NCBI RefSeq assembly: GCF_008831285.2
Contig: NC_045138.2
Span: 4,307,205-4,371,204, forward strand
From: Nymphaea colorata
Taxonomy: Eukaryota > Streptophyta > Magnoliopsida > Nymphaeales > Nymphaeaceae
Direction of reading: 5' to 3'
Length of the DNA: 64,000 nucleotides
The stretch's first letter is position 1. Every line of letters begins with the position of its first letter. Below the pieces are notes generated by a model. That model ran no database searches. It was not told the DNA's origin and saw nothing but the letters and a program-made list of their open reading frames with translations. The position numbers and the translations under genes were made by a program. Of this stretch, positions 3,428 through 54,200 are shown in pieces.

Positions 3428-4880
3428 CTCTTGATTTGTTTTTACCCGGATAGATGTAGAACTGATGTTTTGGGTTTATGTATCTCCCAAACTGCATGAG
3501 GAGATTTTGCATATTCGTCTCGAGCAATTGAGATGGATCTCTAAATGTATTACCTTACTGCATGCAAGTGAATTAAGGAACCCACAATATCACAATGACC
3601 AACACGATCCATTTGCCAAATGGATCGTTCAGAGGGACAGCAGTAGCCCTAGTCCACACACGTATATGCACCACATTAAGGGACTTCCGAGACATTTTGA
3701 GAATTTCATTATTTTTTACTTTCCATCTTTTGTCCTCATAGAAGGGTTTTACCTTTGACAGACCAGGGGCATCCTGGTCTTTTTTTCACCATCTGCATGA
3801 GAAAACATGCACCAGCTGGTGCATATAATTAACTTGGCCTTCAAAGTGCTAGGGCTGCCTCTTATCCACTATGTCACATGGGTGCTTTCAAATGGCTGCC
3901 GCATTTGTGCCGCACCCATGTCGGTGTTGGTGGTTCTCCGACGTAGTACATTTGGTTTTCCTGTCAAAACCGATAATTTTAAATGTACACATAACTAAAT
4001 TATCTTTAATACAAAAAAATACATATAAATGTAAATAAATGAGACTACTCAACAGTTAAAGAACTATGTAACAAATGATTTATACATATACACATATATA
4101 TAATTATTGCACCCACACCCCGTACTCAGGTGACAGCTTATCCATATAAAAGAACTGTGTCTTGGGTGGATAAAAGAACTGTCTCTTGGGTGGATCACCA
4201 AGCGGTGAGGCTACATTCACATTACCATGTTGTCGTTCTGGTTTGAGGAAGACTTAGTAAAGCTACACGGTTCAGTAAGTGTAACTTCGCTCGTGGTACA
4301 TATCTTCACACAAAAATATGATTTTGGGAGACCATATGATTCACTAACACTAGTTTGAAAAACTATTGCATCTCTTGCCGAATCCAAATCAGGACGATCG
4401 CCTGGCCGTGAGCGACCAATGAAAGGGCTGAATGTCACTCAGTCAATGAAACTGTTGGATTTCAGATCTGGATCTGTCCATGTTGGGCCGGGGTCTATTA
4501 TGATACGGTTAAACAGCCACACGGTTACTGGTACAAATACGAGTATGGGGATATTGGTAGGGACACAACAATTTTAAAAGTTTTGAACATGGGAATAAGC
4601 CAATGTATATACAGAAGTGTACATATATGTACAAACTGTCATAAAAAATATGGATAATTCCACAAGAAATATGAAAACACCCCAACAATATGCAAAATTA
4701 ATTCCCAAAATTCCACAAAAGTATGCTAAAATTCCACAGAACCTTGCAAATTCTAAAAAGTACCCAAAAATCAAAACTACCGTGTCCAACTACATGGCGG
4801 TGCCAATGTTGACATGGGTATAGCAGCCTTCCGGCAATTTCTGTGTTATCTGCATTGGTGATGGCCCCTTGATCTTGAAT
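3428..4880. other. No gene recognised
   Basis: Short open frames on both strands have no recognisable motif and no promoter context. A tandem pair of short repeats (AAGAACTGTGTCTTGGGTGGAT and a variant) sits at about 4150-4196. Confidence 0.4.
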
Positions 4881-6060: not shown

Positions 6061-7189
6061 AAAAACATAGTGCTTGTACTGCCAAATGCCCTCTTAGATA
6101 TCTAAGGAAGATGATTCAGATCTCCCAATTATTCATTCCACAATGCATTCAAAGTTGAGGTTATATAAAAATAAGATACCAAAATAGTGCCTCAAAGATA
6201 AAAACTCAATTAATGCAGGCTTTCAAAATCTAAAGTGCCAAATGTAAAACAAAGAAGGTTGGTTGCTTTTGTTGGCCAAGTGATGTGGTTTCTCTCACTA
6301 AAAAATACATCTAAGTGCCCCAAGTTGCTCTCAAAGTGCTCTATCCAATTTCTTGAGGGCCTTCAAGTGATAATGGTACTTCAAAGTGGGGGTTTCCATT
6401 CATTTAATTGCAAAGATCCTGGCATTCCCATCAAGCCAACAATCCTTTAGGTACATGTATCAAATAAGGGAAGCCAAGGACATGTATACAGAATGTGTTC
6501 CTAACACCTGAAAGAAAATATTTCATTCAAAGAACAGAGTGTTCTACCAAATGATCTAGAACATCTTCACTCTTCCAATGCAGTAAGTTGAACAGGAAAG
6601 GTGGAAGAAAGAATGCTTCAGTAATGCTTTCTCCCCACTCTCCCCCTTTACTGATGTTTTTTTGGGGTCCGTGTCACTAAGGTAACATTTGGCTGCACCA
6701 GGATTGAAATCCTAGGATTTACACCCCCATTCCAAAATGTGGATGCCTTTGTCGAACTTGAATTATAATCCGCTGGATATCTATCCAGTAAGTTGACAAC
6801 ATGGAAAAAAAATTGGAATGTTGTTAAAGCTTTTAAGTAACAAGTTTTTCAAACCTTCAAATTGATCTGCTTGATAAAGTTTTTCTAATCTATACTAGTA
6901 TGTTTTTCATTTAATTGCCTCAATACATACTACACATATGGTTAAATGAATGAAATCTGAAATTAAGCATTTTTAATGTGGGCACTCTCAAATAATTGCC
7001 AAACTTTTGTTATTCATTCTCCATGTTCTTACAGCAACGAGAAACTGCTTTCATGGTGAAATAAACATATGGCGTATTTCAATTTTCAGGCTTACTTTTC
7101 TTACATAAATCCAGAAACAAAACTACTTTTAGAGATTTTAATGAAAATGGTCATTCATTTCATGAAAATTCAAACTAAGGGCTTGATAC
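6061..7189. other. No gene recognised
   Basis: AT-rich sequence with no conserved frame. Its last part may be the remnant 5' leader of the LINE that follows. Confidence 0.35.
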
Positions 7190-8081
7190 AGAAGAAGATC
7201 TGGCTGAAGTTGTGAAGAGAAGGGCATGGAGAGTGGGCGGATGCACTTTAATCACTAGCTGATGGCAACCTGGCCAGGAGATGAAGATTAATACAGTAGG
7301 TATAGTTATGTTGTGGATTCATCTCCCTCAGCTACCCATTCACCTATGGAATGAATACTATGACAAGGGCATAGCGACAACTCTACGAGGATAATATGCT
7401 AAGGAAGATAGCTGCTCGGACAAATGGGAGAAGGTTGGTTTTACAAGGGTGAAGATCGAAGTGCCGATCAATTTCTCCCCGTTTCCGTGGATTTCTCTGC
7501 ACTTGGGGGGATGGTCGATCGATCTTATAGGAGGTTGCTTACGAATCTAGAATTTCATTTTGTGACCTTTGTGGTGCCCTCACTCACACTAGGTCAACGC
7601 ATAAGAAACATACAGAGGGAGGGCCAGCCGCAACAAACTCCTAGTCCACGGTGAAAATGGCGACCAAAGTCTGGAGGGGGCACCAACGAAAGGGAGGACC
7701 ACACATTGCCAAACTGACCATGTTAGGTGATGCAAAAGTGAGGAATGAAATCTAGGGAGCGGGAGGTGGAACACACACCAATTGCTTATCAAAAGGAGCA
7801 GACCAAGGGGAAAGGACTGCAAGGCGACAATGGGACAGGAAAAGCCAAGTATCAAGCAATGGAGCTGAATCACCGAGCCTTAGGTAACCCTTTTGATGCA
7901 TTGGCTAACAAAAACAAGATGGAGGAACTCAGCTTTCCTCTCAGTTTCACCTTTGAATCTGGGAGGCCAGCGATTGTGCTAAAATCTAGTGAGGGCAAGA
8001 CCAAAGGAACTATACCTCAAGACAAGCTGGTGAGAGGCATCCACATTAATGGGCATAGACAGAAGAAGCAGGATTAGCAAT
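7190..8081 (+). pseudogene. LINE ORF1 remnant, 5' part (DUF4283 and zinc knuckle)
   Basis: Reading the plus strand gives RRAWRVGGCTLI, WQPGQEM and WIHLPQLPIHLWNEYYDKG, then KWEKVGFTRVKIEVP, which is the usual run of the DUF4283 RNA-binding region of plant L1 ORF1 proteins. It is followed after a shift by FCDLCGALTHTRSTH, a zinc knuckle spaced C-x2-C-x4-H-x4 with His replacing the last Cys. A later open frame (7745-8077) continues to a TAG just before the nested insertion. Several in-frame stops make it non-functional. Confidence 0.75.
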
Positions 8082-8849
8082 TGTTCGCATCCCCAAATTT
8101 TTTGGTTGGTTTTGGAGTGCTTAAGAAAGATGAGTTTTTATTTTGAAAATGAGAGAAAGTGACTCACCCGTTGGTACGAGGCGACCACTTCCGACGACTT
8201 TACCGGGAGTAATCAACCCAATGACTATGTTTATTATTGATGCATTTCATTTTCGCTTGAATATCTTTTCCATTCTATATGCGGTGTAGAAAAATATTGA
8301 AAGTTTGTTGTTTCGAACTTTTGAAAATGTTCTTGAAGAATCATTTGAGAATGTGAAATATTTTAGGGAAAACTAGAATTGAGAAATCTTTGTAAAGATC
8401 ATTTGGAAAGCTTGAGAAATCATTTTGAAGTCACTTTAGTGTTCTCTTAAGATTTTAAGTAGTTTTGATATTTTGATATAATTCGGTTACTACTTAGTTA
8501 TAGTTCCATCTCATCTTTCTTAAAATTTTTTGAAGAGGTGTTTGTGATCATAAGTGATATTAAGTGATTGTGGATGCATGAATGCATTGATCCTGCATAA
8601 TTGGAAAAGAAAATCATTCATTCTTACCATAACATTCATCTAAAAACATTCATACCATGATATATATTTAAAATTTTTGTTTTTATAGTTATGATACATA
8701 AGAAGAAAATGTTTTTGAAAATGGATTGAGGTTGTAGACCATCAAGCATGAATCTAATATTGGGTCATTACTTGACTTTGGTCTTAGTGAAGTCGGTAAA
8801 TAAAAAGATCAAGAGAGGAAAATGTTAAAAAGAATGGAAAAAATGCAAT

Positions 8850-9215
8850 ACTTTCATAAAAAGAAAGAGAGAGTAGATAGAAAAAGATGTACATACCATC
8901 ACATATGTACGTATGTGAAAGTTTGTAAAAATGATGTTGATTTGAATAGAAAGAGAGAGTTTTAAAGGAAAAGAGAAATATATATACATACATACATGTG
9001 TATGTATAAGAAAAATTGTAAAGAAAGATGTTTGCCTTGAAAAGAAAAATAAAAGATTCTATAAAGATAAAAAAGAACACATGCATATATGTATTCATGT
9101 GTATATGAAAATTTGCAAAATATAATGTGAAAACATAGAGAGAGAATGAGAAAGGGAATCATCACGTGCACATATATGTATATAATATGTATATACATAC
9201 ATGTCTTTATGAGAT
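8850..9215. repeat. Degenerate tandem repeat, about 90-110 bp units
   Basis: Three to four diverged units alternate a purine block (GAAAGAGAGAGTTTTAAAG type) with a TACATACATACATGTGTATG-type block and a GAAAATTTG(C/T)AAAA block. They lie inside the U3-like part of the nested element and give rise to Tyr/Ile-rich minus-strand open frames that are not genes. Confidence 0.6.
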
Positions 9216-9410
9216 TAGAAATGAAGAAATGACTTAAAATAACTGACTTCAAATTTGATGTAGGCCGGAGGGGAGTTTGGATTCATGCAAGAGCTTAAGC
9301 TAAGTCTCCAAAGCCACATTAGAAAGTGTTCTTTGGAAAATATTTTTGGAGAACATGATCGTGAACATAAAACATAGTTATTTCATTGGTTACAAGAGAA
9401 TATGTTTCTT

Positions 9411-10560
9411 CCACCGTTGGGTATGAAAGAAAGCCAAACCACACGATAAGGCGCTCAGTAGGTTTCCTAATCGGATTATTAAAAGGAAACTAACACGAAA
9501 TGACATGAAAATACATATTAACATATACACATTCGTGAGGGTTTTCCTCGAGTTGGACAAGCCTCAACCTCAAAAATTTATATAATAATAAAGAGTCACA
9601 AACCACACTCTCATTCTCATTGTGCATTCACATATATGAATAGAAAAATCAAGCAACTATGCATAAACAATATCTAAAATAGAGCAACATTAAAGTAATA
9701 GAGAGAACTTGTTAAATCATATAATGCAATAGTATCTCACATTCTCAGTGCACTCAAGAATAGCTTCTTGACTCTAAAATAGAGATTTGAGAGCTATGGC
9801 CATGAGGAGATGGAGAAGAGAGGAAACACCAATACTATGTTCTAAAAAAGAGAGCATGATTTAATCATAAATGAAACAACACTTCATCTTCTCATGGCCA
9901 TGAGGAGATGAAGAAGCAAAAAAACAACAATACTGTGTTTTAGAAAAGAGAGCATGATTTAATCATAAAATGAAACATCACTATTCCACTGTTGGGTATG
10001 GAAGAAAGCCAAACCACACGATAAGGCGCTCAGTAGGTTTCATAATCGGATGATTAAAAAGAAACTAACGTGAAATGACATGAAAATGCATATTAACATG
10101 TACACATTCGTGAGGATTTTCCTTGGGTTGGACAAGCCCCAACCTCAAAAATTTATATAATAATAAAGAGTCACAAACCACACTCTCATTCTCATTGTGC
10201 ATTCATATATATGAATAGAAAAATCAAGCAACTATACATAAACAATATATAAAATAAAGCAACATTCAAGTAATAGAGAGAACTTTTTAAATCATATAAT
10301 GCAATAGCATCTCATCTTCTCATGCTCCCAGTGCACTCAACAATAGCTTCTTGACTCTAAAATAGAGATTTGAGAGCTATGGCTATGAGGAGATGAAGAA
10401 AAGAGGAAACAACAATACTATGTTCTAAAAAAGAGAGCATGATTTAATCATAAAATGAAACATCACTTCATCTTCTCATGGCCATGAGGAGATGAAGAAG
10501 AGAGAAAGCAACAATACTGTATTTTAGAAAAGAGAGCATGATTTAATCATAAAATGAAAC
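9411..10560. repeat. Two tandem copies of a 575-bp unit
   Basis: CCACCGTTGGGTATGAAAG at 9411 recurs as CCACTGTTGGGTATGGAAG at 9986, and the match continues through the whole unit (for example AAACCACACGATAAGGCGCT in both). Each copy ends in two shorter, about 105-base repeats containing GGCCATGAGGAGATG and GAGCATGATTTAATCATAAA. Confidence 0.9.
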
Positions 10561-10569
10561 ATTACTTCA

Positions 10570-11690
10570 CATTCTCATGCGAATAGCTTATTGACTCTAA
10601 AATAAAGATTTAGAGGCTATCATATATGGTCATGGGAAGATGAAGAAGGGAAGAAATAAGGGAACAACAACAAGTCTATCTTCAAGAAAAGAAAAACATT
10701 ATTCAATCATGAAATGAAATATAATATTATTTTCTCATGCTCTCGGTGCACTCAAGAATAGCTTCTTAATTCTAAAATAAAAATTTGAAGGCTATCTCAC
10801 ATGGCCATGAGGAGATCAAAAGGAGAGAAAATAAGGAAACCAAAACAAAGCTATATTCAAGAAAAGAAATAATAATTCAATCATAAAATGAAATATTACT
10901 TCACCTTCTTATGCTCCTCGTGCACCCAAGAATAGCTTTTTAACTTAAAAATTAAAATTTTAAAACAATCTTATATGGCCATGGGGAGTTGAAGAAGGGA
11001 ATAAATAAGGAAACAACAACAAGTCTATCTTCAAGAAAAGAAAGAACATTATTCAATCATGAAATGAAATATAATATCATCTTCTCATACTCTCAGTGCA
11101 TTCAAGACTAGCTTCTTAACTCTAAAATAGAGATTTGAAGGCTATCTCATATGACCACAAGAAGATCAAGAAGAAAAAAAATAAGAAAACCAAAACAACA
11201 CTATATTCAAGAAAAGAAAGAATGATCCAATCATAAAATGGAATATTACTTAACCTTCTCATACTCTCGGTGCACTCAAGAATAGTTTTTTAAAATGAAG
11301 ATTTTAAAGCAATTTTATATGGTCATGGGGAGATGAAGAAGAGAAGAAATAATGAAACAACAACAAGTCTATCTTCAAGAAAAGAAAGAACATCATTCAA
11401 TCATGAAATAAAATATAATATCATCTTCTCATGCTCCCGGTGCACTCAAGAATAGCTTCTTAACTCTAAAATAGAGATTTGAATGTTATCTCATATGACC
11501 ACGAGAAGATCAAGAAGAGAGAAAATAAGGAAACCAAAACAACACTATATTTAAGAAAAGAAAGAATGATTCAATCGTAAAATGGAATATTACTTCACCT
11601 TCTCATGCTCCCGGTGCACTAAAGAATAGTTTTTTAAAATGAAGATTTTAAAGCAATCTTATATAGCCATGGGAAGATGAAGAAGGGAAG
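10570..11690. repeat. About 173-bp tandem repeats in an alternating two-type order
   Basis: The landmark CTCGGTGCACTCAAGAATAG, with variants, falls near 10741, 10915, 11093, 11266, 11436 and 11609, spacings of about 170-178 bases. Successive units alternate between a type with GAGATTTGAAGGCTATCTCA and CCAAAACAACACTATATTC and a type with GATTTTAAAGCAATCTTATA and AACAACAACAAGTCTATC, so the true period is a dimer of about 345 bases. Confidence 0.85.
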
Positions 11691-12002
11691 AAACAAGAGA
11701 AAAAAAGGAGAGAGATGATGACTACATACCTTTAATGAGAATGACTTTTGGAAAAATGAACGCCTTAGCTTGGAATGATCATACATCTCCTTTTAGTGAA
11801 GCTCCAAGATGATGAAGATGATGCCTACAAAAGAGTGGTAGTTTGATGAAGCTTGCTCCAAGTTGGAAAAGAAAAGAGAAATGGAAAGAGGAAGAAGGAA
11901 ATTGAGGAAGGGAGCTAAGGGAAAAACTCTAAGTTTTGAAGTGAGGATGCACTAGAGTTTCTCCAAGGATTAGCTCATGCCCAAGAGGGAGGATTGTGAG
12001 GG

Positions 12003-12012
12003 TATTTATAGA
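12003..12012 (+). promoter_or_regulatory. TATA box of the nested LTR
   Basis: TATTTATAGA in the context GAGGGTATTTATAGAGAG matches the TATA region of plant LTR promoters. It lies about 745 bases from the 3' end of the element, so transcription would start near 12040 with R and U5 downstream. This orients the element on the plus strand. Confidence 0.55.
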
Positions 12013-12755
12013 GAGTTTTGAAGCCAAAACTCAAAATTTGAATTTTTTTAATTTCACAATATTTTCATCCGAATTTCAAAGAATTTTGAATCATTTTTAA
12101 TTTTGTTTTTTAAAAAAGGTTTTAGGTGTGGGTAGGGCTATTGCCCACCCAAAGAAACCAAAACCGCCCCCAAGGGGGCAGGCCCCTACTCGGGCATTGT
12201 CGCGCACCAGGCGCAACAACGGCCGGTGCCTCGGCAAAACGCGTGTGTGCGATGCTCGATCTCATGTCGCTTGACGCGCGATCACGCCATTGTGTGTCGC
12301 GTGATGGGCGATGGATTTTTTTTTTAAATTTAAATTTAAATAATTATCTAATAAAATAAAATTAAAATGTTGTTTATATAGGAAGCATAAAATATTTTTT
12401 TATTTAAGATGTGCAAAAAGGAAAATTTTTGTTAAAAATGCACGGCCGACTCCATTTCAAGTGACTCCGGACTCGCTCCAAATCCGATTTTGGTTTAGTC
12501 GGTTGTCGACTCGTTCGAGCATGCGACTTGGGTTTAAAAAACGTTTTTGGCGTGAGAAATGAGTTCTTAAAACAAAGGGATGGTCCGTGCACACACGATG
12601 CTCAAATCTTGTCGTTTCGAACTTGATTCGAATTTTGGATTTGAAATGTTTGATTTGGATCTGAACTTGAGTTTTAGATCTAATTTGGATCAAAAATTGG
12701 GTTTTGTATTTTGATAAAAGAGCGTATCATTTTGGAAAAATTTGAGGTGATTACA

Positions 12756-12972
12756 GCAGTCCATTGATAGAATTCTTCTAGGAGACAAGACTAACCAAGG
12801 GGATAGAGAAAATGAATGGATGAGGGTTGCACGGAAGAGAAGGAAAGAAATATATGACTTAATTAAGGAGATAGGTCGTGTCTTAGATGAAAAAGAAAAT
12901 GAAATACAACCAGGGGGAATCGAAGTGGTTATGGAAAGGGGGGAGGGAGATAAGTCGGTGATGTGCCGATGA
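12756..12972 (+). pseudogene. LINE ORF1 remnant, 3' part
   Basis: Directly after the nested insertion the frame that left at 8076 resumes and stays open for 70 codons (GDKTNQGDRENEWMRVARKR and onward) to TGA at 12970-12972. The sequence is basic and hydrophilic, as ORF1 C-termini are. Its stop overlaps the ORF2 ATG (12969-12971) in an ATGA arrangement. Confidence 0.7.
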
Positions 12973-15760
12973 AACTCGCTTGTTGGAACATGAGGGGGGC
13001 TGCACAGCCGGTGGCCCAAGAAGACCTTGTAAATCTTTGTAATTCTGAAATGCCAATGATCTGCTTCTCCTTGATGCACAGGTTAAGGAGATGGTAATCA
13101 AGAGTGTTGCCTGTCGTTTGGACATGGAAGGGGTGCAGAGAAATGAAGAGAGGGAAGAAGGGCGAGCACGTATTTTTTGCTTTTGGAACCAAGAGTAAAA
13201 CCCTGACTGTTGACATGGGAGGGCCATCATGTTATCAGTGAAGCTTGGGAGGCAGCGGTGCAGGGGTGTCCTACTCTGCGGGTCCTTCAAAAGCTTGAGG
13301 TGGTTAAGAACAGTCTTATACACTGGAACAAAACTTCTTTTAGGAGAATTGAGGAAAACATAAAATCCCTACAATGTCGGCTAAGGCAGACTCAAATGAA
13401 TAGTGAGGCAGGGGATGGGTGGGCATCTAGGGAAGATGAATCCATCAAGAGAAAGCTGGACCATGCATTATACTTTGAAGAGATTATGTGGAAGGAAAAG
13501 TTTAGAGTCAGGTGGTTATTAGATGGTGACAAAAAACAAGCATTTTTTCCAAACAATAGCCAACAATAGATCAATGAGAAATCACACTGCAAATCTTGAG
13601 GCGGCAGACAAACCTTCTCTATACCTGACAGTATGTTGGAAGTAGCTAGCAGCTATTTTGAATGGTTTGTTAATGATGATAGGACGAGTAGCGATATCCC
13701 TAATGATATTTGGGAGGGAGAATTCATCACGACAGAGGAGAACTCCCCCCTTTTGGGACCAGTCACCTATGTGGAGGTCAAGGAAGCAGTTATGTCTCTT
13801 GACAAGGAGAGCGCTTTGGGGCCTGATGGGTTTCCGAACTCCTTTTATCAAATCATGTGGGAGGAGATTGGACAAGATATCTAGAGAGTGGTGGACAATT
13901 TTTTGAGAATGGGAAAGATGGTGCGAATTTTAAACAAAACTTACTTGATCCTCATCCCCAAGAAAAGAGGAGCTCGCCGGATTGAGGACTTTATGCCCCT
14001 TGCCTTGTGCAATGGCTTTTACAAGGTGATTGTTAGAGTTATGGCTCAGCGCATGAGGAAGATCCTGCCTGGATTGCTATGACCAATGAGCTGGTCCATC
14101 TTTTTGATAACAGGAAAGAAGTAGTAGCTTGTCTCAAACTTGACATCTCAAAAGCATATGATAGAATATCTTGGAGATTCCTGCAAAACAACCTTCTTTA
14201 TGTTAGATTTCACCCATCATGGGTGAAAAAGGTTATGGCTTGTGTCTCCACGGTCTCCTATGAAGTGATGATTACGAGTAGTGTTAGGCAAGGCAATTCG
14301 ATGTCCTCCTACCTATTCATTCTAGTAATGGAAATAGTAGCTAGGTATCTTAAGGGAAAAATAATGAGGAGGGCCATTCGCCTCCCCTCCTTAGTTAGAG
14401 CCATACAAGATGTCCACTCCTTAGTTAGAAGAGAGAGTGAGCTTCATAATCAATAACTCCAAATCATCTCTGTTTACCTTTAATGTAGACGCTCCTCTAG
14501 AGCAAAGGTTGGCCAACATTGGTGGCTGGCAGGTGGTTAAGCTACCCTTGAAATATCTAGGTGTTCCTCTTTTTACGGAGAACTTAAATGTGGAGCATTA
14601 TTACGTAGGGTTGATTGTTAAATTTGAGAAGAAGATGGCACCTTGGAAATCCCAATTCCTATCTTATGGAGGTCGTGCTTGCCTTATCACTCATAACCTG
14701 AGCTCCACGGGTAATTTTTGGATGCAATCTTTCTCTCTCCCATTTGCTGTAGTAAAGAAGCTTGAGAGATGCATGGCTGATTGCCTTTGGGTTGATATTG
14801 AGGACAACTTGCATATTCACCAAATAGCCTGACGTTCATTGTGCAAGCCTAAAGTGGAAGGAGGGATTGGAATATGCCTTTTTGAGGATGTTAATGATTC
14901 CCTTCTGGCAAGCAGACTTTGCTCTTCCTTTAATAACAACTTCCTCTTTGCTCAATGGTGCATGGCAAGATATCTTAAATCTAAGAGTTTGTGGACAATG
15001 CAAAAACTATGGAGGGGCTCTGGGCTTGGAAAAGCTTAGGAAAAGACTGGGAAAAGATAGAAAACTGGGTGAGGTGGAATGTTGGTAATGGGAAATCAGT
15101 CTCTTTTTGGTAAGATTGATGGTATGATGAAATTCTGGTGAAATCAAAGAGTGGGGAGGACTATGGTGTCATAATTGATCACCTGAAGCTTTCAGTGGCT
15201 GAGGTAAATGAGATAGGTGAGGCTAGACTAGCTCTGCCAAACAAGGCATTAGCTGCGACTAGGTATATTCAACTAGCTAGTGTGGCTGACCAACTAGTTA
15301 GTAATGCCCAAGAACTCAAGGATCTAAGCTCTAGGTGGATCTAGGAAGCTACATGGCAGAAGGGTAGTCATGAAGGCTGGCGGAAGGGTATATGGAACAG
15401 ACACATCCCAGATAGAGCAAGTTGGGCTACTTACATTGCCAGCCTCTCAAGCTTAAACTTGGAAGCCAATGTGCTTCAAATTGTCGCCTGCAAGAAGGGC
15501 GTAAAACTATGGTGATGGGCATGTGGAGATTGGGAGGCATGGAATCTAATGAGGTTCTTCTTATTGAAGCTCGCTCTAGGGATGATGAGGCTGAATTGCA
15601 CATGTTGATTGGCTGGCTGCAATCTATGGAAAGAGTTCACGGTAATGTTGAGACCATAGCGAACAATGAATACTGAAAGCGTAAACTCAGAGCTATACTG
15701 GAAGGCTGAAGGTCGATTAAACATAAATGTCAACATATTAGGGCACTCAGCCAACGTTCA
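12969..15760 (+). pseudogene. LINE ORF2 remnant (endonuclease start, reverse transcriptase, C-terminal region)
   Basis: From ATG 12969 the sequence reads MKLACWNMRGA, the start of an APE-type endonuclease, then breaks. A large part of the endonuclease is missing before about 13200. RT landmarks follow in order: KFRVRWLLDGDKKQAFF, ALGPDGFPNSFYQIMW (13810-13860), LILIPKKRGARRIEDFMPLA, CLKLDISKAYDRISW (14130-14175), VRQGNSMSSYLFILVMEI. The expected F/Y-x-D-D block is absent: the text jumps from the region after RQGN to SKSSLFTFN. Then come KLPLKYLGVPLF and a tail with NGKSVSFW. Several frameshifts and stops mean no activity. Confidence 0.88.
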
Positions 15761-16060
15761 AGGGTACTTTGCCAACTGCCTACAATAGAGGCTGGCAAGC
15801 AGATGCTATGGGGAGAGAGATGGGAGGGATGATGGTGGCTAATGCTATTTAAGCTCTACACCTACTGTTGCGCTTAATGTCTTTTGCTTTTCAATAGGAG
15901 CAGCTACTCAGGTGGTAGCTTGGCCTTTTGGTTTTGGTTTTGGGGCAGATGGGTTATACGTGCCTGAGTTTTTTTATCTCCTTTTGTGGCTGATGCTCGG
16001 CATTTTGTAATTTTTTTTTTTCTTCCTGTACACATTTTAATTTTTCTACAATAAAAGAAA

Positions 16061-16521
16061 GGGAGCCTATCTACCAGCAGCCATTTTATTGGCAACATTT
16101 CATAATTTACAATTAACCCCACATTTCGGAATTTATAATTAATTTGACTGCTTGGAGTAATTTATGTTCAAACGCTCCCTTAAAAAAAACTGAATGTGAA
16201 TTTAACTAGCATACAAACTCACATTTATATGTTATCAAGTTGGATCCTTATCATATCTCAGTCTGATATAGATCTTGGATTCAGATTTAGTTACGAAACT
16301 TCATTACCAACCCTAAATTCGATTAGTAGTTGGATCCACAATTTCTTACCAGATTTGACGAAACTCATTCCGAATCGGATACGTCCCCACTCCCTAACCA
16401 CCACCTTTTAAGCTAACCATGGTTGTACTGGGGTTAATGATGAACCTCAAGTCTCTTTTTCTCACTCTCCAATCTTTTCTGTTCTACCATTCTTCTCTGA
16501 GCACACAGAGCCAAACATAAT
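16061..16521. other. No gene recognised
   Basis: AT-rich spacer between the LINE tail and a CACTA-type MITE. GGATCC/GATATAGATCTTGGATTC motifs suggest an eroded member of the GGATCC-rich repeats seen elsewhere in the window. Confidence 0.35.
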
Positions 16522-22408: not shown

Positions 22409-22927
22409 TCAGTTGGCGCCGAGATTGATTCGGACGCCCTTGGCACCGGCGGCGCTCCGCCGGCACTCCTCGATGAGCGCAGACTTGGCGGAGACAAGGC
22501 CGGAGGGAACGAGCGACCGATCGAAGGCGACGCAGTCGGTCCAGTCCTTGAGGAACTCCTCCTTCCCCCACACGTCCGGTATCCAGACGTTCCCCGCCAC
22601 CTGACTCCGGTGTCTCTGCAGCCTCTCCCTCCCGCAGTTCCCGCTATCGGTCAGCTTCTCGGGAGGCGGCGGCGGCTGAGGAGATGAAGCCTCTTGAGAA
22701 GTGCTCATGGCCCTCTTGACCGCCTTCGCGTCCTCTTCCTCCTCCTCCTCACATCTGTCCTCATGGCTAGGCCGTTTTTCGCCGGGAAAGGCCGATGGTG
22801 GCGGCGACGCTGGCGGTGGTGGTAGTGGCGATAGTGGTGGCGATGAGAGAGCAGATACCATATCCGGATTGTGGGAGGCGATGCTGCCGATCGTCGTCGT
22901 CCTTCTGGCGAGTTTCCGTCGAGCCAT
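22409..22927 (-). CDS. BIC-like protein (blue-light inhibitor of cryptochromes), single exon, 172 aa
   Basis: BIC1 and BIC2 of Arabidopsis bind photoactivated cryptochromes in the nucleus, block their dimerisation and so damp blue-light signalling. The C-terminal half carries the signature of that family: [20 protein letters not shown] at residues 99-118, [13 protein letters not shown] at 120-132, and [20 protein letters not shown] at 135-154, corresponding to the cryptochrome-interacting region. The N-terminal half is low complexity, with a basic start (MARRKLARR), Pro/Ser-rich tracts (29-47, 82-89) and an acidic run (60-65). I chose ATG 22927 (context CTCCATGGC, G at +4). The frame is open ten codons further upstream, but without an ATG. 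It is intact and ends in TGA. At 172 residues it is longer than Arabidopsis BIC1/BIC2 (about 140 and 120), the excess lying in the variable N-terminus. The coding region is clearly GC-richer than its surroundings. BIC1 versus BIC2 assignment is not possible from sequence alone. Confidence 0.9.
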
Positions 22928-23094
22928 GGAGAAGGGAGGAGGAGGATAGTTTAACAAGCGAGGTGGTGAAGATTGGGGATACCGAGGGAGAGGCGGCAGA
23001 GAGGAGGGAGGTTTGGGGAGTGTGTGGTAGAAATAGGAGAGTTGCAGCGGTGCAATGTCATGCCCATAGGAGTGTATGTGTGGGGCTGATGAGA

Positions 23095-23205
23095 TCCACG
23101 TTAGTTATGTTGTGTTTGCCTCTCTATCTCTCTCTTATGTTTCTCTCTCTACAACTCTTCCTTTCTCTCTCTACAAAAGCAAGGAGAAGAGGGCACCAGT
23201 GGAAT
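23095..23205 (-). promoter_or_regulatory. GA/CT-rich leader or core-promoter region of the BIC-like gene
   Basis: About 170-280 bases upstream of the BIC start codon, the minus strand reads as runs of GAGAGA with TAGAGAG repeats, as in many TATA-less plant promoters and 5' leaders. An ACGTGG core (a G-box/ABRE half) lies at about 23095-23100. The exact transcription start cannot be told. Confidence 0.4.
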
Positions 23206-51232: not shown

Positions 51233-54200
51233 ACCTTACTAATTTGATTCTCAAGATAGTATTGATGATCTATAGGAATATTATTCTCCAACACAAATAT
51301 AGGATCCTCTGATTTTTCATAGGCCTGTTTAGCACCAGAGCAGTGTTCCCAAATGAATCAGATCTTTCACATCTATCAGATAGTTCTCAAGTCCATCAGA
51401 CTAAAATCTACCTTAGCACCTTTAGCAGCTTTAATAATTACATAAGGAACCCGATCACCAACATTTGGTGCAGTTGCAGCATCTCTCTATCATCAGAACC
51501 AAAGTGTCAGATGCAACTAATCATGTCCCCAAAGCACAAAAACAACCAGCATGATTGAACACCTTACCATGGAACCACTATGAAACAAATTGAAAAGTAC
51601 AGACTATTTACAATCAAATCCCAAGGCTACAATATCAAAGAGATCACTTTTAGATTAGGGTACTCTATCACAACCAATAACTGAATAAAGTAGTTCAGAC
51701 TATGGTAATCAGGCAAGCCATAAGGCAGTTGCATAAACAACACAAAGTAGCTGCTAGCTTGAAAATTTAAAGTACCAGAAGGACACAGACAGTATAACCC
51801 CATGCTGCACGCAAGCAAAAAGGAGGGAGAAAGAGAGTCCATGCGGATTTGGTCAATGGATGCAACAACAATTTCCTTAGCCATTAGGTTTATCAAATCC
51901 CTGTCTAGATCCATGAAGGTGTTTGCAATTTATTTAGCTCCAAAAAGATGTATCTCAACTTTCACCCATGCGCTTTTGCCCTTTAACCATTATGGTTTAG
52001 GGTTTAGAGCACTTAAGAATAATAAACAGAAATTTCCAGAAAGTGGATTTTTGTTCTGGAAAACTCCTAATTTAATTTGTAAAAGCAAGAAAACGCCCAT
52101 GATCAAACCATCAATATTTGAACCTAAGTCCATCGAGGTTTCCAGAGTTACTATCAGTGTCCTACAGCTGTAGAACACTAAAAGTTAACATCAGTATTTG
52201 CGAAAGAGACTTCAAGATGTTCAATATATTCTGCCCTTAATTTCAATCAAGTAACAAATTCCTCCTGAGATCTTGTTAACTCATCAGAAGAAATTGTTAG
52301 GCATGATCCACTAGGTTTCAGTTTACGCAAGAATCAGATAACCATCTTAAGCACGTCATGCCAAAAAATTATTGTACGAACGGCATGACTTGCACTGTGC
52401 TAATAAAAAGGAGAAAAAAATACAGCAAAAAGGCTTTGTTCTGAGACTTTGAGACCCATTAGGAAATTGACATAGAAAGGAGACAGATTATTTCACATGA
52501 ACAAGAAAACCAAAAGATTAAACTAATAACCATAGAATCACCTAACCCCCATGCTCATCACTAGCACCCCTTGTAAGCCTCTTGTTGTTTAATAAAAAAC
52601 CATAGAGTTGCTAAAATTGTGTGCTGAACTAGATTTAATTTGAAAAGACAAAATTTAAGGAGACATATCTTCTGGGAACATGTGAAAAATGATTGAAAGA
52701 AGAAGGTGCTACAGAAGTTTCAACCAAAATTCAGAACATAACTTTTGGTAATTTACCTTGCGCATGCGTTCAGCAAGTTCAACATGTGCAGCCTTCACCG
52801 CATAGGCATCTCCAGTTTTTGTCAAGCCCTATTAGCCATCATATTTAACCCCTAAAAACTATTAAATCATCCAGACCAAAAAATTCACACGAGTTTATTG
52901 TGACAGCAAATAAAGCATATGATACTGGTTGGCAGTTATTAGTAGCCACCAGCCACACAGGTAATTCACAATTAGCTGTGTCTCAAATTGCCCAGTCTAA
53001 CAACTGCAGAGGAGAGGATCTCTGAAGTAGAAAACCACCACTAAACCAGAGACACTAGTTCCCGTGCCCATATACCTCATAGTGAGACATAGATTTTAGA
53101 CGCCAGTTAAAATAAGAAAAAGCACTAACCTTTGTTATCACCAAAAGAGACAAATCCATGCGATTCAATAGAAGATCAGCTATTGTGTTTTTAACATACT
53201 TAACAGCAGCTGGAATGTCCCGTTCAATCAGTATTTTATGAAGGCATCCATTCACCAGGTTCTTTACCAGAAGACAGTTGTCTCTTCTAACTGTTTCAAT
53301 GCCTGCTCCATGCAACTTGGCAAAATTAATAAGGAAAATAGAGGAAAATAGTAAGTCTAAAATATCCAGATCAAACCCACCCTTTGTGTCCATCTTATCA
53401 TATTTTTCTGGTTTTGTCCACAGAAGTCCTGCATACCTCTTCTTACTGATAAGAAGATATGGATAATACACTTACTTTCTCAAACTCCAGCTTGATGGGC
53501 TAATAGTCAACGCAAACACAAAAATGCCATCCATCAAATTTCTATATTGCGATTGTAATATAAACTTGGTATAAGTAATTGACAATATAGTAGAGATGAG
53601 GATAATCATTGTGCTTATATAGACCAAGATCCACTTTAAAATAGTTATCTAGTCTCACTTTACACAATTTTATGCTCTTCAAAACACATCAGTTAATTCA
53701 TAACCAAGGAGTTGTTTATTTATATATATATATATAATTTTCACTGAATTGCAAAGGGACGTCAGTCAAAGTTTTATCCAGTTTTTTGTTATGAAGTACA
53801 CACAGTTTCCATGCTGGGCACCAAGTTAATCATGGAAAAAAAGGACGTTCAACACAGATAAACTTATGAAGAAATATCTGGGATCCACTCTTCTGAAACA
53901 ATTAACATTGAAAGCTAAAAGACGAACAAAATTTTTAGACAAAGGTTTTCCTCCTTGAAGAGATAATCAATTTTTCAACAAAATCAGCCCTTCTGGAAAA
54001 AGTATTCCCAGGCCAAAATGTAGCTATGTTCAAGTTATGTGAAAACAAAAAGGAAACACATCTATCATGTACTTTTTTGCAATAGAAAGTAAAATTTCTC
54101 CTACAGCACCTACAAAGTTAAAAACTGAACCAAGCTGCTGATTAAGCTACCAAGTTTAGCATTAAGGCATCCAATTTCTTAGTTCTTAGTTGGCAAAGAA

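Follow-up and report, generated by a model that had tools for sequence, protein, structure and literature searches.

Ogre elements, which belong to the Tat clade of Ty3-gypsy LTR retrotransposons, have long LTRs. In the part of the classification of Neumann et al. 2019 that deals with them (PMC6317226), a second RNase H lies between RNase H and integrase in both Ogre and Retand, and a plant mobile domain is given for 57% of Ogre elements. LTRs of Retand elements range from 315 to 1,194 bp in the survey section of PMC11963269, and tandem repeats between pol and the 3' LTR are described for Ogre/Retand in passages of two papers (PMC7004042, PMC11963269). Recombination among family members of LTR retrotransposons has also been described (PMC5668417).

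Here we analyze a stretch of 64,000 nucleotides from Nymphaea colorata, referred to below as the window. An original prediction, made from the letters alone, had placed in it a 4.7-kb TG...CA element of the LTR class, inserted in ORF1 of a LINE after the LINE itself had arrived. Comparing the element, its flanks and its relatives within the same genome, we found that the element is very probably the solo LTR of an Ogre-like Ty3-gypsy element, lying on the minus strand in the LINE ORF1 and left there by recombination between two LTRs.

Results

Edges of the insertion and the ORF1 reading frame

The insertion comprises the following features:

8077..8081, no strand, left target-site duplication GCAAT, matching 12756-12760 at four of five bases
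8082..12755, minus strand, solo LTR of 4,674 bp, probably Ogre-like Ty3-gypsy, with ends common to other copies and a strand read from paired elements (coding strand in two, order of PBS and PPT in four)
12756..12760, no strand, right target-site duplication GCAGT, paired with 8077-8081

The bases between GCAAT and GCAGT are exactly those claimed: read from the window, the segment opens with TGTTCGCATCCCC at 8082 and closes with GGTGATTACA at 12755, so that in its sense, the minus strand, it runs TGTAATCACC...GATGCGAACA. It has TG...CA termini, a target-site duplication on both sides and no internal region. Neither a PBS nor a PPT adjoins it, both flanks being target sequence that rejoins the LINE. 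The flanking pentamers hold as a target duplication, with one mismatch in five, and to the original prediction, which gave the element no strand, we add the minus orientation. Two pentamers would match at four or five of five bases by chance in about 1.6% of cases, by our own estimate, so that the duplication alone is weak evidence, and the proof comes from empty sites and common ends.

The LINE has gained 4,679 bp (the segment and one target copy), a multiple of 3 plus 2, and the insert consequently breaks ORF1; for the same reason its removal on paper returns the frame. The joined flanks read KKQD-stop-QSIDRIL, followed by about 70 codons before the next stop, which reproduces the predicted reading of KKQD, TAG, Q, SIDRIL and 70 open codons. 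The excision that had been proposed along with it fared differently: the frame does return on paper, but no excision took place.

The host LINE and its empty site

The host has these limits and this coding remnant:

7180..16094, plus strand, decayed LINE that hosts the insertion (outermost alignment limits with five fetched copies)
14037-14453, plus strand, LINE reverse transcriptase piece (RVT_1, E 4.5e-11)

The left limit is reached in L047, L048 and L049 and the right limit in L047 and L051. The ORF1 frame extends to about 12972 and is followed by ORF2. We take the host to be a plant L1-type LINE, which it resembles in having ORF1 and then an ORF2 with reverse transcriptase; compared with that type the window copy is decayed, and otherwise unremarkable. 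About 0.52 kb present in every one of the five fetched copies is missing from it at 13195/13196, as is about 0.45 kb near 15440 found in all three copies that reach this point (L047, L048, L051).

A genome search with the right flank (12756-13160) gave 18 matches, of which one is the flank itself. Fourteen of the 17 relatives align straight across the joint and thus hold an uninterrupted empty site, and three (L036, L037, L046) stop short of it; the left flank was compared within the loci recovered by the right flank. In the alignment of one relative, L035, a gap of one base falls at the joint. A single pentamer stands there in the relatives, in several spellings that include both window states, CAAT (L030) and CAGT (L033). 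Twelve of the 14 empty-site relatives keep the ORF1 residues aligned from one side of the joint to the other; L035 and L038 are shifted by indels. Six of the 14 (L030, L033, L039, L042, L043, L044) are free of stops for about 20 codons to the left and to the right, and each of the remaining eight has its own stops or shifts. The TAG at the window's joint codon is absent from all 12 in-frame relatives; L031 has a stop one codon later. The search for LINE copies free of the insert, suggested with the original prediction, thus recovered them, and the insertion is younger than the LINE, as had been claimed.

A related LINE, L048 (C10:2563500-2572500), carries an LTR of the same family, of about 2.8 kb, at a different LINE position. 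This LTR is flanked by GAGAA/GAGAA and its orientation relative to the LINE is opposite to that in the window, and its insertion is an event separate from the one described here.

Elsewhere in the window, an ORF at 53055-53471 on the minus strand matches DNA polymerase family B (E 4.5e-20). Another, at 22409-23104 on the minus strand (231 aa), has no Pfam match and is reminiscent of plant BIC1-like proteins. ARAGORN found no tRNA genes within the window.

Copies of the LTR in the genome

The segment was searched against its own genome (408 Mb, 783 contigs), where, with 40 of 2,424 candidates scored, at least 129 matching stretches were found, the window included. The copies examined amount to 18 distinct LTR places (23 loci, five being duplicates). 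In 14 of the 18, element position 1 is the first base of the match; in L004, L009 and L018 the local match begins at 3, 13 and 7, and these diverged starts were set by eye, and in L026 no start was found. At the other end, 13 places match to the very last base and three (L014, L023, L024) stop one base short, the end not being found in L005/L028 and L027. Most other copies examined therefore share both terminal bases, in agreement with the base-exact edges that had been predicted. Neither of the two findings named as refuting the prediction was seen: apart from PBS and PPT, none of the copies examined has sequence in common with the others past 8082 or 12755, and none of the related LINEs examined carries the segment in this place as LINE sequence of its own.

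Fifteen other LTRs were compared: eight in four pairs, six solo, and L023, which shows a PBS-like site at just one of its flanks and was left out of the duplication count. Among the six solo copies, which adjoin neither PBS nor PPT, the target duplications are identical in four (AACTC, CAAGT, CCAAC, CCAAC) and differ by one base in two (AGCTC/ATCTC, CTCTG/CTCTA). No near-identical sister of the window LTR appeared among the 15 copies, to which it is 81-86% identical over the first 1.3 kb.

Structure and orientation of paired elements

Four pairs of LTRs, on C6, C15, C1 and C7, were fetched, each in the same orientation and 11.9-13.2 kb apart from start to start. Their outer duplications (ATACA/ATACA, GAAAC/GAAAC, GTGGA/GTGGG, ATGTT/ATGTT) are identical in three pairs and agree at four of five bases in the fourth; the pair flanked by GAAAC lacks the final A of the LTR. 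All four elements have a PBS-like TGGCGAC two bases past the LTR and a PPT-like AAAGAnGGGCA ahead of the other LTR. Two internal regions out of four, those of L010 (C6) and L016 (C1), had their ORFs read, and relative to the plus orientation of the window these ORFs are on the opposite strand. The order of the PBS-like and PPT-like sites agrees with the coding strand in all four elements, and the two together place the window LTR on the minus strand.

In L016, Pfam places RT_RNaseH, a second RNase H (RVT_3) and integrase, in this order, at 6140-6664, 6830-7141 and 7541-8266. This is the Ty3-gypsy order, with RT-RNase H ahead of integrase; the RT piece (RVT_1, E 4e-4) and the integrase piece (rve, E 0.009) are both below the Pfam cut-off in this copy. 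L010 has RVT_3 and integrase, with rve above the cut-off, and its first RNase H falls outside the scan. The RVT_3 match may represent the archaeal-type second RNase H of the Tat clade. For Gag and protease, no Pfam match rose above the cut-off (Ty3_capsid E 0.069, Asp_protease E 0.076). An upstream ORF of L016 gives a weak match to the plant mobile domain (E 1.3e-6; 28.3 bits, the cut-off being 34.9), and the corresponding ORF of L010 has no Pfam match to it. The genome thus holds what had been proposed as a check on the LTR-class reading, namely paired copies with a PBS-like site in all four and pol pieces between the LTRs in the two that were read.

LTR length and internal repeats

Three features were located within the window LTR:

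9409..10566, minus strand, 583-bp tandem duplication (9409-9982 and 9984-10566), copies 94% identical
10581..11706, minus strand, array of units of about 175 bp, also readable as 344-bp dimers (TRF, marker counts, genome copies)
12003..12010, minus strand, TATA-box-like TATAAATA, lying some 0.75 kb inside the LTR when read in its sense

The 16 LTRs measured range from 2,369 to 4,674 bp, the window LTR being the longest because of its array of ~175-bp repeats and its 583-bp duplication. Variation in length comes mostly from the middle region of ~175-bp units, of which the window LTR has eight markers and the 15 others zero to seven. L057 (C7:1831500-1836500), another LTR of the family, also has eight, so that the window array is long but not unique. 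A marker for the 583-bp unit occurs twice in the window, once in eight and not at all in seven of the 15 other LTRs. Twelve of the 16 LTRs have TATAAA in this context, at a distance of 0.3-1.0 kb from where the LTR begins in its sense. This site may be a promoter element, which would place the repeats in R/U5.

The copies of the 583-bp duplication differ by K 0.062, less than the K 0.103-0.142 that separates the paired LTRs of the four elements, which makes the duplication younger than these pairs. This low value is consistent with duplication in place, as it would be with conversion. The 344-bp dimers differ by K 0.090, 0.129 and 0.155; they are about as old as the LTR pairs, which speaks against late expansion of the entire array. 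Seeding of a satellite was considered and rejected: among the matches listed for the 344-bp unit (40 of 986 candidates scored) arrays are short, none outside the window exceeding about 1.4 kb (C7:1833715-1835150), and no satellite was seen.

Relations and age

In the LTR tree the partner LTRs of every paired element, four in all, group together as sisters with bootstrap 100. The window LTR has no firm placement, its tip measuring 0.084 (0.093 after six rows were added). The short inner branches agree with an old burst followed by decay. At the substitution rate of grasses, 1.3e-8 per site and year, the four pairs would be about 4-5.5 million years old; we do not adopt this age because the rate of grasses may not be that of this plant. 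The LTR in the window has no partner of its own from which its insertion could be dated.

Discussion

In the explanation that we hold to be very probable, a Ty3-gypsy element, putatively of the Tat clade and most like Ogre, integrated in minus orientation into the LINE ORF1, creating a 5-bp target-site duplication, and recombination between its LTRs would later have deleted one LTR together with the internal region, leaving the solo LTR. The mismatch in the window duplication and the lack of a near-identical sister among the copies compared weigh against it. Two other origins of the segment were weighed. It might be native to a LINE subfamily and not inserted at all, a reading that nothing was found to favor, in which we place hardly any belief and which we reject: the relatives with empty sites pass through the joint without the segment, and other copies of the segment occupy different target sites. 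It is also very improbable that the segment is a single LTR surviving from an incomplete element, the remainder having been lost by ordinary deletion and not by LTR-LTR recombination. The one-sided PBS-like flank of L023 suggests that partial elements may exist in the family, but beside the window LTR PBS and PPT are both absent, a target duplication is present, and both flanks are target sequence rejoining the LINE, and this reading too was rejected.

With a solo LTR as the preferred reading, there is an even chance that it is also a mosaic of two LTR subfamilies, produced by template switching or gene conversion. When the LTR was scored in 200-bp steps against group A (11 LTRs) and group B (five LTRs), A surpassed B at the left end (all seven steps, 1 to 1201) and at the right end (the two steps from 4201 on), and B surpassed A in all 13 steps between element positions 1401 and 3801. 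The groups, however, were picked after trees and searches had been seen, and the middle region is repetitive. Moreover, step 4001 has no match, the C7 pair surpasses A in two of the seven left steps and L026 surpasses B in four of the 13 middle steps; at 4401 just one of the five B loci gives a match, and the ends of some loci in this group are unclear. A fuller version, in which a recombinant Ogre-like LTR took its repeat part from another subfamily and its repeat region, or at least the 583-bp duplication, grew in place once the element was immobile, seems to us rather doubtful. If true, it would make arrays inside the LTR a site of satellite-like growth, as against the 3' untranslated region described for Ogre/Retand.

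A solo LTR nested in a dead LINE is ordinary genome debris of a known kind, and the one in the window leaves biological understanding unchanged. Its use is as a clean, base-exact case of one element nested in another and reduced to a solo LTR, with empty sites for comparison, which serves annotation and relative dating; the growth of repeats inside the LTR is a small point for studies of satellite origin.

Domain order and LTR length point to the Ogre lineage as the closest match to the element. Retrosat2 (PMC3485330), which has long LTRs and an additional ORF, was weighed on that account; it belongs to another lineage, being a Tekay chromovirus in the relevant part of PMC6317226. A second RNase H in the same position is shared with Retand as described there; unlike the Retand LTRs of the survey section (PMC11963269), those of the present family measure 2.4-4.7 kb. 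Tandem repeats lie inside the LTR here, in contrast to the position between pol and the 3' LTR given in the Ogre descriptions cited above. The likeness to Ogre comprises a second RNase H placed after the first and ahead of integrase in L016, the 5-bp target duplication and the very long LTR; a plant mobile domain match upstream in one of the two elements read is weak and stays below the cut-off.
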